Of a stretch of 64,000 nt of DNA, positions 3,001 to 62,169 are shown piece after piece. Made by a program: the position numbers and the translations under genes. This stretch comes from Kondoa malvinella (Eukaryota; Basidiomycota; Agaricostilbomycetes; Agaricostilbales; Kondoaceae): NCBI GenBank assembly GCA_039545315.1, contig BCIM01000001.1, forward strand, positions 3,381,783 through 3,445,782, in the 5' to 3' direction. The notes beneath the pieces were generated by a model, which saw only the letters and a list, made by a program, of their open reading frames with translations, was not told the origin of the DNA and searched no databases. Every line of letters starts with the position of its first letter. Position 1 is the stretch's first letter.

Positions 3001-5385
3001 TTCCGGCAAAGTCCGCGTCTTCATCGTCGAGAGGGGCAACAATCGCGAATTTCTTAGCCTGGAGAAATACTATAGCGAGCAGCTGCCTGCCGTGCGAGCG
3101 AAGAAGACTGGAGGACAAAATGTAGAAGGCGGGCTAGGCGTCTTTGATTATCCGAAATCGATCAAGTCAGAAGTGACCTTTCATGCAGCTGAAGATATTG
3201 CATTCCGAGCAGTCGCTCGAGAACTGATATCTTTCAACAATCAAAAGCAAGGCGCTACACTCCTTGCGATCTACTCTGCCCAAGATCGTACCTACTTCGA
3301 CGAACGAATGTCCGCAGCAGTGTCTCACTTTCCCGTCATGATGATCAACGCTCGAAGCGCCGACAACACCTTCAATGCTCTCGGCTGGAGAACACCTACA
3401 GGCAAACGCTTCATCCAGCACTACCTTCGCTTGTCCACTCACGTCCGCAATCAAATCGATGTCGCTGATCGTTTCGACCTACCGTTATGCAATCTCGAGC
3501 GCGACGAAACACTCTTTTGCGCAGATTTGGACTTCTCACGGCGTCTACTGAAAGCCGATATGGTTCTTTGGTGGTCGCCAGCTGCCAAGCCTGATCTCGG
3601 TGGCTCGGAAGAAGATGCCAACGCTCCCCAAGAAGAGACTGCTGCTAGCGAGCTGTCTAGGCCAGGCTGCTATACCAATGCCTGTCTGGAAGTCGAACTT
3701 CGCGATCTGGTCGTAGATGCTGTGTTACAATCAGCTTTGGTCTACGAGCTTGAGGGAGCAGAAGGCGCTGCTGTCGGCTTTGCTGCAGAAGCATCCCATA
3801 ACCTGGATGAATACTCGAAAGGCACTGCGCATGCAGCGGTCGAACTTGGTGATGCTGTTCTGCCAGCCGCAACATTTGCAATCTTGAAAAGTATGGTCAA
3901 GAAGTGGTGGACGGACAGCGGGAAAGCGGATGGCGCAAGCTCAAGAAAGGTTCTCGATCATTTCTGGAGATGGATCTCTTCGCCTTCAGCCAAATCTTTC
4001 GATCCTGCTATTCATCGCTTCATCATGGGTCTGATGCGCAAGACCTTTTCGCAACTAGTCGCAGAGTTCCGGCGACTTGGTTGCGATATAGTCTTTGCAG
4101 ACTTTGGGCGATTGTGAGCCTAATATGATTATTGTGATGATCATTGACTGACATCTCTTCGAAAGGTTCTTGGCAACAACGAAGCCAACGTCTAGCATGG
4201 CCTACGCATACTCGAACTATGGTATGTACAATGAACCTCATTGTGTTTTGATCCTCATTCGGTTCTGCACTAGTCGTGTCCTCCGTCAACTCACGCGAGC
4301 TCTTCAAATACGTCTCGCTGCAAATCATACATTACTGGGACATCCTGTTATGGATGGACTCGGCCAATTTCAGCGGCATCACCTGTCCTGATCCGCTAGT
4401 TGAAGTGGACGAGTCAGCAAGGGAGATCGACATGAACTGGAACATCGCGACTTTCCTCCCAGACGCGATTCGACCGGTGTTTCGTGAAATTGTCGCCGCA
4501 TTCGTCCACGGCATGCATATGGCAAAAGTGGAAACGACAGACGCCTGCCGCACACCGTTTAGAGTGCTGCAGAATGCTACCCAAACACAGCCAGATCCGA
4601 CCAAGGCGCAAGAACATGATCTGGCGAAGCAATTTGTTCAGCACAAGATGACTCGCCAATTGTTGAAAGCAGTGCAAACACTACAAAGACAACACGCCGA
4701 AGATGCACCGGATGTCGCTCTACGCAGAGCGTGGCTCTTTCCGCAACTGCCTGGATCTCATCTGCCCATGAAGAACCCGATTCTAGAGTGCATCAAATTT
4801 GTGTGTGCTGTGTTGGCTCTGTCGCGGGAGGTTAATGCAGAGGTTGGAGTGTTGAGGCGCAATCTGCTCGATCTCATATCGGTCAAAGAGTATGTTTTCG
4901 GTATTGCTTTCACTTTGAGGTAGCTGACAGATCTTGGTAGATTCTCTCCCCAAGCTGTCTTCAAGAACCCAGCTCTACCCTTCCGCATCGAGTTGGTCTG
5001 CCAATACTGCACAACAGTTCGCACATTCGACCTCACACGAGACACTGACCTCCTCGATCCCTTACAACCTGGTCAGAAGCGTGCCTTCCCTTGCCTGAAA
5101 TGCCATCACTCGCATGACAGCAAGGCCATTGAGGCCGGTCTGCTCGATCTCGTCACTCGACAAGCAACAGCCTTCCAGCTTGGCGATTTGCGCTGCGGAC
5201 GGTGCAAGCAGATCAAGTCAAACACCCTTTCGCTTCATTGCGACTGTTCTGGCTCATACACTACAGCTGATGCTCAGACGGAATACTCCAAACGGCTTCA
5301 GATCACAGCCAGTGTTGCTAATTTCTATCAATTCGGCGACTTGGAAGAGACTGTACAGATGATCAAACATCGATCGGGTATATAG
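1..5385 (+). CDS. POL2: DNA polymerase epsilon catalytic subunit (5' partial)
   Basis: This is the leading-strand replicative polymerase, a nuclear B-family enzyme. The window opens just upstream of polymerase motif A ([14 protein letters not shown] near 400-430). Motif C appears as DTDGIW near 1090. A long inactive second polymerase half follows, then the C-terminal cysteine modules: CysA with CQYC near 4999 and CLKC near 5092, then CysB with CGRC near 5197 and CDC near 5239. CysB is the type that holds an Fe-S cluster or zinc in this family. Exons read by eye: 1-176, 230-1936, 1985-4113, 4166-4221, 4274-4890 and 4941-5385. All introns are about 48-53 nt and GT-AG. The N-terminus, including most of the exonuclease domain, lies before the window. 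Identification is secure from the motifs and overall order. Confidence 0.96.
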
Positions 5386-21354: not shown

Positions 21355-22881
21355 CTAGTGACCTTCCTTCTCCAACTTGGCACGTAGGACACCACGGAGC
21401 TCAACAGCATCAGCGGCGAACTGTTCGTAACAAAGGCATTAAGCAAAGTGAATCTGCTTGAATCCGCCCGAACGAACCTTCTTGATACCCTCGTGCAACT
21501 TGTCGAAAGCCATTTGCTCATCGAGCAGCTCCCATCGGAACTTGGGCTCATCATCCACAAAGCTGACTTTCTCCATAGGTTGAGCTTTACCAGCCTTCTC
21601 GACCGACAATTTCTGTTCGAGCGACTTGTTGGAGTTTTTAAGTTCTTCCAAAAGCGATGGCGAAATGGTGAGGAAGTCGATACCGCAGAGCTCTTCAATT
21701 TCGGAAATGTTTCGGAAAGAAGCGCCCATGACGATAGTGTTGTAGTTGTGCTGTTTGTAGTAGCTGTGCGCAGCCAAAGTGCAGTTAGTCACAATCGAAC
21801 TAGGCAGGCGCTGGGACGCACTTGTAGATCTTCTGCACGGAGTGAACACCTGGATCACCAGCGCCCTCGTACTTGCCATCAGGTTTGGCCTTCTTGTACC
21901 AGTCCAAGATACGACCTGTAACCAAATGAGCGTACAAACAAAACAGCTGAAGCACACGACATACCGACGAAAGGCGAGATAAGAGTGACACCAGCCTCAG
22001 CACAAGCAACAGCCTGACCGAAACCGAAAAGAAGGGTCAAGTTACAGTGGATCTTGTGGTCGCGTTCGAGGATGCGGGCAGCCTGAATACCTTCCCAGGA
22101 TGAAGCAATCTTGATCAAGACGCGGTCCTTGTCGACTCCTCGGTCTTTGTATAGCTGAATAAGCTCGAGGGCTTTGTCAATGGTCGCTTTTGTGTCGAAA
22201 GATAGACGAGCGTCGACTTCGGTCGAGACACGACCTGGGATGAGCTTAAGAATCTCGGTACCGAATTCGATGAGCTGTACAGAAATTCGAAATTATCAAC
22301 ATATATCATGCTGAAGATTGGTACTGCGCACAAGAGCATCCATGGTAGCCTCAACCTTTTCATCGAGGTTGTTTCCCTTGTTGAGACCGTGCTTAACAGC
22401 GTTGTCTACTTGTTTTGCGTAGTTGGGCTTCTTTACGGCCGCCAAGATAAGGGAACTGTATGATTATAGTCAGGAAGAGCAGGACAAGTCGCGGTTGTGC
22501 TCACGCTATTGAGGAAAGGTCGTTCAGTCAGTCAGATGCCAATGATACTGCTTATGAAAGCCTACGGTTGGTAGTAGCATCCTGCGCGACATTATTCAGT
22601 GCCTTTTGACAAATGCTCGAAATAGACAAACCTGAGGCTTGTATTGGCTGGACAGCGTTAGGTTAGCACAATAAACTATCAGATCTGTTGGCCGCTCACG
22701 CAATGCTCTCGACTATCGCATGAGGTCAGCTCATTACTAGATTACAAAATACGTGAAGCTTACAGTCTCCAGAGTCTAAAGCAAGTCCAAAGCATTAGCA
22801 GCGTATACGCCATCAGAGGTCTAATAGCTTACCAGAGACGACGGTTGTGTATTGCTTGAGCGAGTCTAATGAGTTTGACAT
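21355..22881 (-). CDS. TAL1: Transaldolase TAL1 with five consecutive microexons
   Basis: Pentose phosphate pathway enzyme that moves a dihydroxyacetone unit between sugar phosphates, in the cytosol. Family signatures are QYKPQDATTNPSLIL near the N-terminus, [18 protein letters not shown] with the Schiff-base lysine, and [18 protein letters not shown]. The product has 328 residues, the normal size. Exons: 22881-22833, 22775-22764, 22712-22700, 22647-22632, 22581-22566, 22505, 22455-22332, 22274-21965, 21915-21822, 21763-21478 and 21420-21355, totalling 987 nt. Exons 2 to 6 are 12, 13, 16, 16 and 1 nt. The single base at 22505 is required: without it the total is 986 and the NPSL codons are lost. 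The gene is divergent from MCM2. Confidence 0.95.
22505..22505 (-). other. Single-nucleotide exon of TAL1
   Basis: The base C on the minus strand lies between an upstream intron of 60 nt (22565-22506, GTAGGC...CAATAG) and a downstream intron of 49 nt (22504-22456, GTGAGC...CATACAG). Both introns carry a CTGAC branch-like site about 20 nt before the 3' end. The base completes the proline codon of the active-site NPS motif. Confidence 0.8.
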
Positions 22882-40107: not shown

Positions 40108-42451
40108 ATGGCCGAGACGGAGCCTGCAACTCCTGTAATGGATGCACAAGATGACGCAGACCGCTCTGAAGCAATAGCTGGTCGAGGTCGCATGGATTCG
40201 GTCTATTCGACTCCGCCAATAGGTGGACCAACATCGCCTGAAATACCTGTAAGCTGCTCCTCTGACTCCCCGTGCACTTGCTGAAATGTAGCAGCAAACC
40301 ATTACCGAAAACGAGGTTGCGCCAGAAGTGCCTGACGTACCAGCACCTCGGGAAGACACAGAACAAGAAATAGCTCTGAAAGGTCAAGTGGCAGACCTGC
40401 AGAGTCAGCTTGCTTCTCTCAATTCCAAGTTGGTCAAGACGTTTGGGCGGATCGGGGATCTAGAGGATGAGGTAGAAAACGCGAATGGTATTACTGTTGG
40501 CTTGCGGAATAAGGTCAATGATCTGGAGGTCGAAAGAGTAGCTTGGGATAGGCGGCTAGAGGGAGGTCTGATTGTAGAAAAGGTGAACTTCCTCTCATGC
40601 TTTCATTGCACGCGTACTTATGATGAAGAATAGGCTCATGTCCAATCCGAATTGACTCTGCTTATGGACCGCGTCATTGCCGAAACAGCATCTCGAGGCA
40701 AAGCAGAAGCAGACAAAGCAAAGTTCGAAGGCGAATTAGACGAATTGTCCGCTTCTCTGTTCAACGAAGCGAATCGAATGGTCGCTGCCGAACGCATTGC
40801 CAAAGTCATAGCCGAGCGCAAATCAGAATCACTAGAAGAGCGTCTCAAGGATACAGAGGTCCTCATGGGCGGTCAATCAGAGCAGATGAAGGACTTGGGC
40901 AACAAGCTAGATTCCATTGAGCGAGAACGAGATCAGCTTCGGAATTTATTGAACAGCATGGAAGCGGATCCGACAGTGTCGGGAGCAAGACAATCAACTC
41001 CAACTGCTACTTTCGTCAATGGCGATTCCATCCCGACTATTATAGCTTCTCGACCTGCCTCGCCTGGATCATCATCTCAGCCCGCCTTCTCTCTAGCACA
41101 TCCTATGCCATCTCTCATGACTGATATACTACCTTACCATGAATTCATACTCTACCTCCGACATCTCGGTCGCTTAAAACTTCAACTAGATCAACCTTTC
41201 CTGCCCGGCCAAAACCCAGGCTACTCTCGTTCCGAACACCTAGCCAACATACTCAACATTACCTCACACACCTCACAGCCATTCATCAAACGTTGCGTGG
41301 AGGAAGACAGCGATCCATGCCTTCGCCTCGATCTCGCCCCCGGTCTGAATTGGTTATCGAGACGCAATGTCCAATCCGCTATTCTAGAAGGTCAACTCAT
41401 CATTGAGCCCACGCACAATGCTCCTTCTACTTCATGTGCGCTTTGTGGTACCGAATCGCTTTCTTCTCGACCTGGATTAGATCGAATTCCATCGCAACAA
41501 GGCACTATGAGGAAATTGATTGGCGCCACTTCTTGGGGTTTCAGATCTTCTTCTCCCTCTGCAAACACGTCCACTAACCGACCTGCCAATTCGCAGCAAG
41601 TCTACATTTTTAGGATAGACAATACTACTAATCCAGCTTCTTTCTTGCTCTGCTCGAATTATTGTTTGGAGCGATTAAGAAGCACATGCGAATTTTGGGG
41701 CGCGGTGAGAGGAGTAGCTAGAGCTGTGGTAGTGGATGGGAAAAATTTGAGCGAGAAGAAAGCTGGTGCGATTGGTAGAGGGGTGCCGCCTGCGCTGGAG
41801 AGGAAGAGTGAAGAAGGCGACAATAGGAGGGTTACGCCTCTTTCTACTCCCGAGGAACAGCCAAAGAGGAGCGTTCCGCCTCTACCTGCGTCGTTGGACA
41901 AGAAAGAGGAAGATGTGGAAGAAAAGCCTGTAGCAAGTGAAGAGGAAGTTGAATCATCTCCAGCTGTCGATGAGAAGGATGCTGTAACGGAAGAATCAGT
42001 GCCTGATGAACAGTCAGAAAAAACTGATCCAGCAGGAAGCAGTTCAACAACAGAGGAGAAGTCATCTACCGAGAATGAGAAGTTGGAAGATGTTTCAACG
42101 CCTCCAGAGGTGAAGCTCACTTCTGAGGAGCCAAAAGAAGAGTCCACACCTGTCGCTCCAGCTGTCGTTCCACCACCAGTACCCCGTCGATCTGGTGCTC
42201 GACCCAAAATCAACACTACACCTTCTTCCTCCAACCTCTCGTCTAGTCAACCACCATCAGCAGCTCAAGAACTAGCTACACCAGTCACACCAGCAGCACA
42301 GCCCTTGTCGAGGCAAGGCAGCTATATGAACCTGAAACAGGAAGACAGCCGAGCTTGGGAGGTGAAGCAGTGGGACGAACTGATACGGATCAAGGAGAAG
42401 CTGTTTTGGACTAGAGTTGGGATGCAGTCTCCGAACAGAGCTAATGTATAA
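40108..42451 (+). CDS. SEC2: Rab guanine nucleotide exchange factor SEC2
   Basis: Activates the exocytic Rab (Sec4 type) on secretory vesicles. The decisive part is a long coiled coil ending with ELDELSASLFNEANRMVAAE, the Sec2/Rabin8 exchange signature. Coiled coil covers roughly residues 60-330. A conserved region LRHLGRLKLQLDQPFLPG and CALCGTESLSSRPGLD follows, resembling the second conserved block of fungal Sec2 proteins. A low-complexity Glu/Ser/Pro tail (EEKPVASEEEVESSPAVD) precedes a short end, SRAWEVKQWDEL. Exons: 40108-40248, 40292-40582 and 40634-42451, totalling 2250 nt and 749 residues. Confidence 0.85.
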
Positions 42452-61327: not shown

Positions 61328-62169
61328 ATAGCTGCTCTGAAAATATCAGAACTTCCTCTGAAAGATTTCGCGAACTGCGCACTCTACCCTGAAAGCAGCA
61401 ACATCTTGTCAAAATCCTTTCCTTCCGCGAATGTCAACGCACGCTTTCTGTATGGACGACGACCTCTTTCTGGTCTTTGCTGTATCTGCCATGCCGCGAT
61501 AACTGTGGCTTCGTCTCTCTGCAGCCCTGATACGCGTGAATATGGCTGTTGAGCGCCAAACAAGCGGGCGACCCTCTTTCGCTCGAGGTTCCCGTGTCTT
61601 TCGTTCGGATCCTTTCTGATCTTCAAACTGTCGCTTTCTCGCTCATTGTCCCATCCCATCGTTACCTCAGATCTATAATTTTTCGCTGCGGTACAGATTG
61701 GGAACGAACTTCGGCTTTGGACCTTCATAATGTCAAGCATTCCTGTTCTCGCGATGGCTGCATTCTTTTTGACACCACACAGTATCTGGACTGGCCGTAT
61801 TGCCGACGTTGGTTTGCTGAATCAATGCTCTCGTTCTAGAAATGATCATGTTCAGCTGTGGCCTCAGCTTGTCTACTGTATGCGTTACATGCTGCCTATA
61901 GTATCTCCCGCGCATCCTTTCTAGTCTGCTTCACGGAAGCCTAGGTAGAGCTGAGAGCCGCAGTGATCTACAAGGCAAAAAAGCTTTCATTCATAACAAC
62001 TCTATGTGTGTGCACAAGCGAGACGACACAAGCAGTGCAAGTGATAGCCTCTTATCAACGGGCAAATTCGGTACGTTGCGCTTCGAGCAAAAGCTGCATG
62101 GCTTTGCGTCCTCCGAGAGCCATAGCTAAGTATCAACAGGAAGGTAAGTGAGATCAAGGGTTGGAACGC
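61328..62169. other. Region upstream of LAG1
   Basis: It holds a 118-codon open frame on the - strand (61740-61384; MGWDNERESDSLKIRKDP...). The frame is Arg-rich and could be an untranslated leader, an upstream exon or a separate small gene. It does not join LAG1 in frame. The remaining 430 bp show nothing supportable. Confidence 0.35.

Follow-up and report, generated by a model that had tools for sequence, protein, structure and literature searches.

Evidence for a one-nucleotide exon between two short introns in the transaldolase gene TAL1 of Kondoa malvinella

Described nuclear exons of a single nucleotide

The comparison made here draws on the accessible parts of the reports cited. In Arabidopsis thaliana, APC11 contains a constitutive single-nucleotide exon that is essential for the frame, lies between AG and GT, and has been studied by means of reporter constructs; its authors prefer an explanation by intron definition and successive removal, and they cite the case of potato invertase, where the second intron is removed before the first (PMC4674806). 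In plants, APC11 and VPS55 have conserved 1-nt microexons, which form two well-conserved land-plant clusters, are absent from genome annotations, and were verified by RNA reads and RT-PCR (PMC8831610). Also, the MEPDB database catalogues 20,224 plant microexons between 1 and 15 nt in length, among which there may be further one-base exons (PMC12409088). For fungi, a nuclear one-nucleotide exon has been described in Fusarium CYP621A, within a 139-nt stretch in F. graminearum, and is backed by relatives and by reads; in its available text, the report presents this gene as the first case from a fungus and the second overall, counting only APC11 as earlier (PMC12940212). A related arrangement of fungi is the [D1,2] stwintron, where an inner intron splits the donor of an outer one between bases 1 and 2 (PMC12403724, PMC5639578).

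In the literature covered, with subscription journals mostly outside its scope, no other nuclear one-base exon was found beyond APC11, VPS55, and CYP621A, and no report was found that deals with transaldolase and microexons. The earlier note on this DNA had called one-base exons almost unknown, which is a fair description as long as these precedents in plants and Fusarium are added to it.

The TAL1 gene and the base at position 22505

The window (the whole 64-kb stretch of DNA analyzed) carries the transaldolase gene TAL1 on its minus strand, from 22881 to 21355, with a span of 1,527 nt including introns and a coding sequence of 987 nt (328 aa) in 11 exons without an internal stop (Table 1). 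These exons measure, in order, 49, 12, 13, 16, 16, 1, 124, 310, 94, 286, and 66 nt, and all ten introns are GT-AG introns of 49-60 nt, the first six being 57, 51, 52, 50, 60, and 49 nt long. The earlier note had proposed the lengths of the first seven exons together with the coordinates 22505 and 22775, which are exact to the base; the six GT-AG introns of 49-60 nt that it listed are all present, as is the C at 22505 between the introns that start with GTAGGC and GTGAGC, each with a CTGAC branch-like site.

The TAL1 product contains a full-length TAL_FSA domain (PF00923, 296 bits, profile positions 1-283 of 285), and solved transaldolases align with it over almost the whole length. The motif DATTNPSLIL, present in 112 of 120 relatives among the matches listed, holds the active-site Asn35, as judged by E. 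coli TalB, and does not include the catalytic lysine. Modestly supported trees of TAL1 and of the gene KRR1 considered below place both within Pucciniomycotina, close to Mixia and Cystobasidium. A family search of the genome found one other transaldolase-like gene (L004, C4:1104489-1104806), which by eye is too divergent for its intron positions to be set against those of TAL1 and shows no microexon run.

Table 1. Exons and introns of TAL1 in window coordinates, with the basis of each call.
Feature	Position	Strand	Basis
Exon 1, 49 nt, start codon	22833..22881	-	sequence; start matches P0001 protein
Intron 1, 57 nt, GTAAGC...CTTTAG	22776..22832	-	sequence
Microexon 2, 12 nt	22764..22775	-	sequence and gene finder
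Intron 2, 51 nt	22713..22763	-	sequence
Microexon 3, 13 nt	22700..22712	-	sequence and gene finder
Intron 3, 52 nt	22648..22699	-	sequence
Microexon 4, 16 nt	22632..22647	-	sequence and gene finder
Intron 4, 50 nt	22582..22631	-	sequence
Microexon 5, 16 nt; codes DATTN and first base of Pro36	22566..22581	-	sequence and gene finder
Intron 5, 60 nt, GTAGGC...CAATAG, branch-like CTGAC	22506..22565	-	11th percentile among 564 reference introns
Probable one-nucleotide exon, C, middle base of Pro36 codon	22505	-	gene finder, enumeration, P0001
Intron 6, 49 nt, GTGAGC...ATACAG, branch-like CTGAC	22456..22504	-	60th percentile among 564 reference introns
Exon 7, 124 nt	22332..22455	-	sequence
Exon 8, 310 nt	21965..22274	-	sequence
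Exon 9, 94 nt	21822..21915	-	sequence
Exon 10, 286 nt	21478..21763	-	sequence
Exon 11, 66 nt, stop codon	21355..21420	-	sequence

Joining the end of exon 5 (AACC), C22505, and the start of exon 7 (TTCC) gives AAC CCT TCC, which corresponds to Asn35-Pro36-Ser37. Possible excisions were enumerated over the region 22581-22405 against the required 15-residue peptide containing DATTNPSLIL, in one or two steps, with introns of 20 nt or more bounded by GT-AG, GC-AG, or AT-AC, and with nested introns included. No single excision within this region yields the peptide, even when the splice sites are left unconstrained. The two-step solutions are two in number, and both of them correspond to the removal of introns 5 and 6, in opposite orders, with C22505 retained. 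As the earlier note had held, C22505 is needed both for the reading frame and for a residue of the conserved motif, this being the only outcome of the enumeration, and the base is flanked by two complete spliceosomal introns, directly after the 3' AG of one and before the 5' GT of the other.

The same enumeration bears on the suggestion of the earlier note that the pair may work as a twin intron, that is, a stwintron in which the inner intron lies within a splice element of the outer one and must leave first. The two introns do lie nearly back to back, and stwintrons occur in fungi. However, introns 5 and 6 each have their own donor, acceptor, and branch-like site, all of them complete and uninterrupted, and no solution was found among the nested ones enumerated; moreover, C22505 must stay behind as an exonic base and either order of removal works, which makes a stwintron at this site extremely improbable. 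Also, the site reads AG-C-GT and differs in this from the zero-nucleotide AG/GT junction of a recursive ratchet point.

The run 12-13-16-16-1-124 was called independently, without protein similarity, by a self-trained semi-Markov gene finder that took as input the window and 200 kb of contig C1 (L010-L029, 1,021 N included). Its seed training included introns 1-4 of TAL1 and excluded introns 5 and 6, the later training sets contained only introns flanked by exons of at least 30 nt, and the priors were adjusted by hand before the final run. For TAL1, the finder places the start too far upstream, adding two exons (73 and 8 nt) and giving 52 instead of 49 nt for the first exon of the gene. Since it has no exon-length prior and uses exons of 0 to 2 nt to rescue frames elsewhere, its vote taken by itself would be weak proof.

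The output of the finder comprises 115 genes, and the 102 that score at least 25 contain 732 introns, with a median length of 50 nt and a 95th percentile of 61 nt. Short exons are frequent in this genome: internal exons of 16 nt or less are 42 of the 630 in these high-scoring genes, two of them being zero-length, and the run of five microexons in TAL1 exceeds any other in the 115 genes, the next comprising three. The two predicted zero-length exons, in which AG directly abuts GT, lie at L010:8697 (minus strand, introns of 54 and 57 nt) and L021:2738 (minus strand, 47 and 59 nt); they may reflect recursive splicing or, equally well, rare single introns of 111 and 106 nt. For TAL1, intron 5 scores 3.77, intron 6 scores 8.05, and the merged 110-nt intron scores 2.79, which corresponds to the 7th percentile among the 564 reference introns. 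With a per-intron prior of -5.5, two introns amount to +0.8 vs -2.7 for a single one, the cost of a lost base not yet being added to the latter. The low rank of intron 5 in the same reference set (Table 1) counts against two separate introns.

These values are relevant for a possible assembly error, according to which the genome would truly read AACCC before GTAGGC and a single intron of 110 nt (22565-22456) would be removed, leading to the same transcript. In favor of this explanation, exon 5 ends in CC, the loss of one C would account for the frame, and P0001, the protein match described below, fits equally well, being protein evidence only. However, a run of two bases is not an error-prone sequence context, which counts against such an error, and introns of 100 nt or more are rare, being 4 of the 732 predicted. 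Moreover, the 110-nt stretch splits into two complete introns at the exact base required, whereas among 5,000 dinucleotide-preserving shuffles of it only one contained an AG-N-GT that splits it equally well, and the gene KRR1 would require an identical accident. With these points considered, an assembly error appears quite unlikely.

The best database match to the TAL1 product is P0001, a protein of 328 aa in which 327 of 328 residues are identical, the sole difference being residue 205 (H in the TAL1 product, Q in P0001). Its contig, from a JGI sample, has a length of 1,086 nt, less than the 1,527 nt of the gene with introns, and would almost certainly represent spliced mRNA, as judged from this size, the record itself being silent on RNA; an uninterrupted frame of 987 nt in such a contig is the pattern expected of a metatranscriptome. 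If the contig is RNA, all ten introns would have been removed and the Pro36 codon would be intact in a near-identical sequence.

P0001 weighs against a decoding explanation, yet it is compatible with a base lost from the genome assembly. In the former, the ribosome would slip back one base after AAC on an mRNA from which a single 110-nt intron had been removed, reading CCT TCC and producing the same peptide; by eye, the joined sequence AACCTTCCC would permit this movement. However, P0001 is continuous on its contig; provided that this contig stems from RNA, the base is already contained in the transcript. This explanation is hardly credible. Another alternative is that splicing of TAL1 yields no functional product, or that P0001 derives from an intronless copy in a different organism; it takes into account that P0001 comes from another sample and has one residue different. 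Nonetheless, the family search of the genome gave just the one further transaldolase-like gene, that in L004, divergent by eye, and an mRNA is a more probable source than an intronless copy with 327 of 328 residues retained, so this alternative has very little to recommend it.

Based on the enumeration, the intron statistics, and a protein encoded on a contig shorter than the unspliced gene, TAL1 very probably has a one-nucleotide exon, most likely constitutive, flanked by two ordinary short introns.

A probable second case in KRR1 and the frequency of such exons

The final run of the finder contained three one-nucleotide exons, those of TAL1 and KRR1 and a third at L027:6459 (minus strand, base G). 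The latter is unsupported, and its protein has no Pfam match at an E value of 0.001. Two further calls of the first finder version, at 61383 and in a low-scoring gene starting at 3794, were gone after retuning.

In KRR1, a gene product identified by its Pfam KH_KRR1 domains, the finder places a one-nucleotide exon C at L029:5565 (plus strand, genome C1:1195565), between introns of 50 and 52 nt. Within DKPWDTEDID-H-WKIEVFE, the single C occupies the third position of the His codon. The Krr1 structures 5wlc and 5jpq align across this site without a gap, with Lys as the residue there, and 14 relatives, hand-picked from the 120 listed, are likewise ungapped. Among these 120 listed relatives, the residue is His in 80 and Gln in 19, while the other 21 were unmatched by the search expression. 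In the enumeration under canonical splicing, no single intron works, and a two-intron solution exists, whichever intron leaves first, only with the C at L029:5565. Were splice sites outside the canonical set allowed, one excision displaced by a single base (GT...TA or TG...AG) would yield Gln. None of 5,000 shuffles splits equally well. A transcript of KRR1 from the same species was not found among the 120 listed matches, which are 60-70% identical. From the sequence, KRR1 would be a second supported one-nucleotide exon in the same genome.

A wider sample of conserved genes comprised 22 loci of 1.4 kb (about 31 kb), with 10 proteasome and 12 Ras-like loci hand-picked from 28 and 52 family matches, respectively. 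Models scoring at least 15 were obtained in 21 of the 22 loci, with none for L041, and no one-nucleotide exon was predicted in the sample. By eye, at least three loci (L042, L043, and L050) were misread in part by the finder, the first two at apparent GC-AG introns. In L042 (plus strand, about 378-431), the apparent GC-AG intron, which starts with GCAAGT, belongs to a Rho-like gene. The reverse strand of L043 (about 257-437 and from 614) carries a Ras-family gene, which we take to be Rab11, with two short exons, 9 and 5 nt in length, around the P-loop region, the 5-nt exon falling within GKSNLLSRF, and this gene also has an apparent GC-AG intron by eye.

The 200 kb outside the window, unselected for such exons, contain one protein-supported case, KRR1. 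Extrapolated to the genome of 19.09 Mb (20 contigs), this would correspond to roughly 95 one-nucleotide exons, with hand-computed Poisson limits of about 2 to 530. One-nucleotide exons might then be a recurrent class in this fungal lineage, with tens to a few hundred per genome and most of them unannotated, where exon length would have no lower bound because minimal introns would be read by intron definition. This generalization is tentative, its chances being slightly below even.

Other features were noted in the same genome. A SEC2-like protein of the window (40652-42451, plus strand) has a 95% identical relative, P0121, on a 267-kb contig, so that a close relative has probably been sequenced at the genomic level. 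Five U1-like RNA genes fall below the Rfam cut-off, one at C2:2433017-2433196 and four elsewhere; the one in L005 starts with ATACTTACCT, the usual donor-pairing end. An Rfam scan of the window gave 0 matches at the gathering score.

Proposed intron removal in TAL1 and comparison with known systems

For the splicing of TAL1, we propose that introns 5 and 6 would each be recognized alone by intron definition, with the donor, branch site, and acceptor contained in one unit of 50-60 nt. Under intron definition, the one-nucleotide exon itself would need no recognition, and the lower limit of exon size would be set only by the need for two machines at one place simultaneously. Moreover, only a single base separates the intron 5 acceptor from the intron 6 donor, which would leave hardly enough room for two spliceosomes and suggests a sequential removal. 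Because each intron is complete, no order would be forced, and either one would lead to the same mRNA. Intron 6, with a better score than intron 5, is expected to be removed first in most transcripts, a proposal that is somewhat more probable than the opposite order.

One-base exons represent a limiting case for splice-site pairing, where exon definition is hardly able to act on a single nucleotide. In this sense, TAL1 and KRR1 provide a natural system to measure removal order, steric exclusion, and minimal spacing. Also, gene prediction with standard programs will probably split genes of this type at conserved motifs.

The introns of placozoan cox1 are reportedly not spliceosomal. That gene shares a one-base exon with TAL1, although it is mitochondrial (PMC5436844). 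Recursive ratchet points, as described in the accessible parts of the reports, resemble TAL1 in that an acceptor adjoins a donor and removal is stepwise, but no base is retained and the introns are long (PMC8605326, PMC6110457), whereas in TAL1 one base would be kept in the mRNA between introns of 60 and 49 nt. The [D1,2] stwintrons have in common with TAL1 two short tandem introns and successive removal; however, their outer donor forms only after excision of the inner intron and no exonic base is left between them (PMC12403724, PMC5639578).

The likeness to APC11 is closer in form, with one base between AG and GT that is needed for the frame. Nonetheless, the base of the plant gene lies 333 nt into a 422-nt stretch, whereas that of TAL1 lies between two introns of typical minimal size and after four microexons, and APC11 is reporter-tested, whereas the TAL1 exon is known from sequence. 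Plant APC11 and VPS55 share with TAL1 that the one-base exons belong to conserved housekeeping genes (PMC8831610). CYP621A is, like TAL1, a fungal nuclear gene in which the single nucleotide is the middle base of a codon within a conserved motif, but it is an ascomycete P450 whose base G, in AGGGT, fits both splice consensuses (PMC12940212), whereas TAL1 is a basidiomycete housekeeping gene and its base C fits the donor consensus poorly. With these differences, TAL1 would join APC11, VPS55, and CYP621A as a nuclear gene with a single-nucleotide exon of the same kind, and it is not a stwintron.
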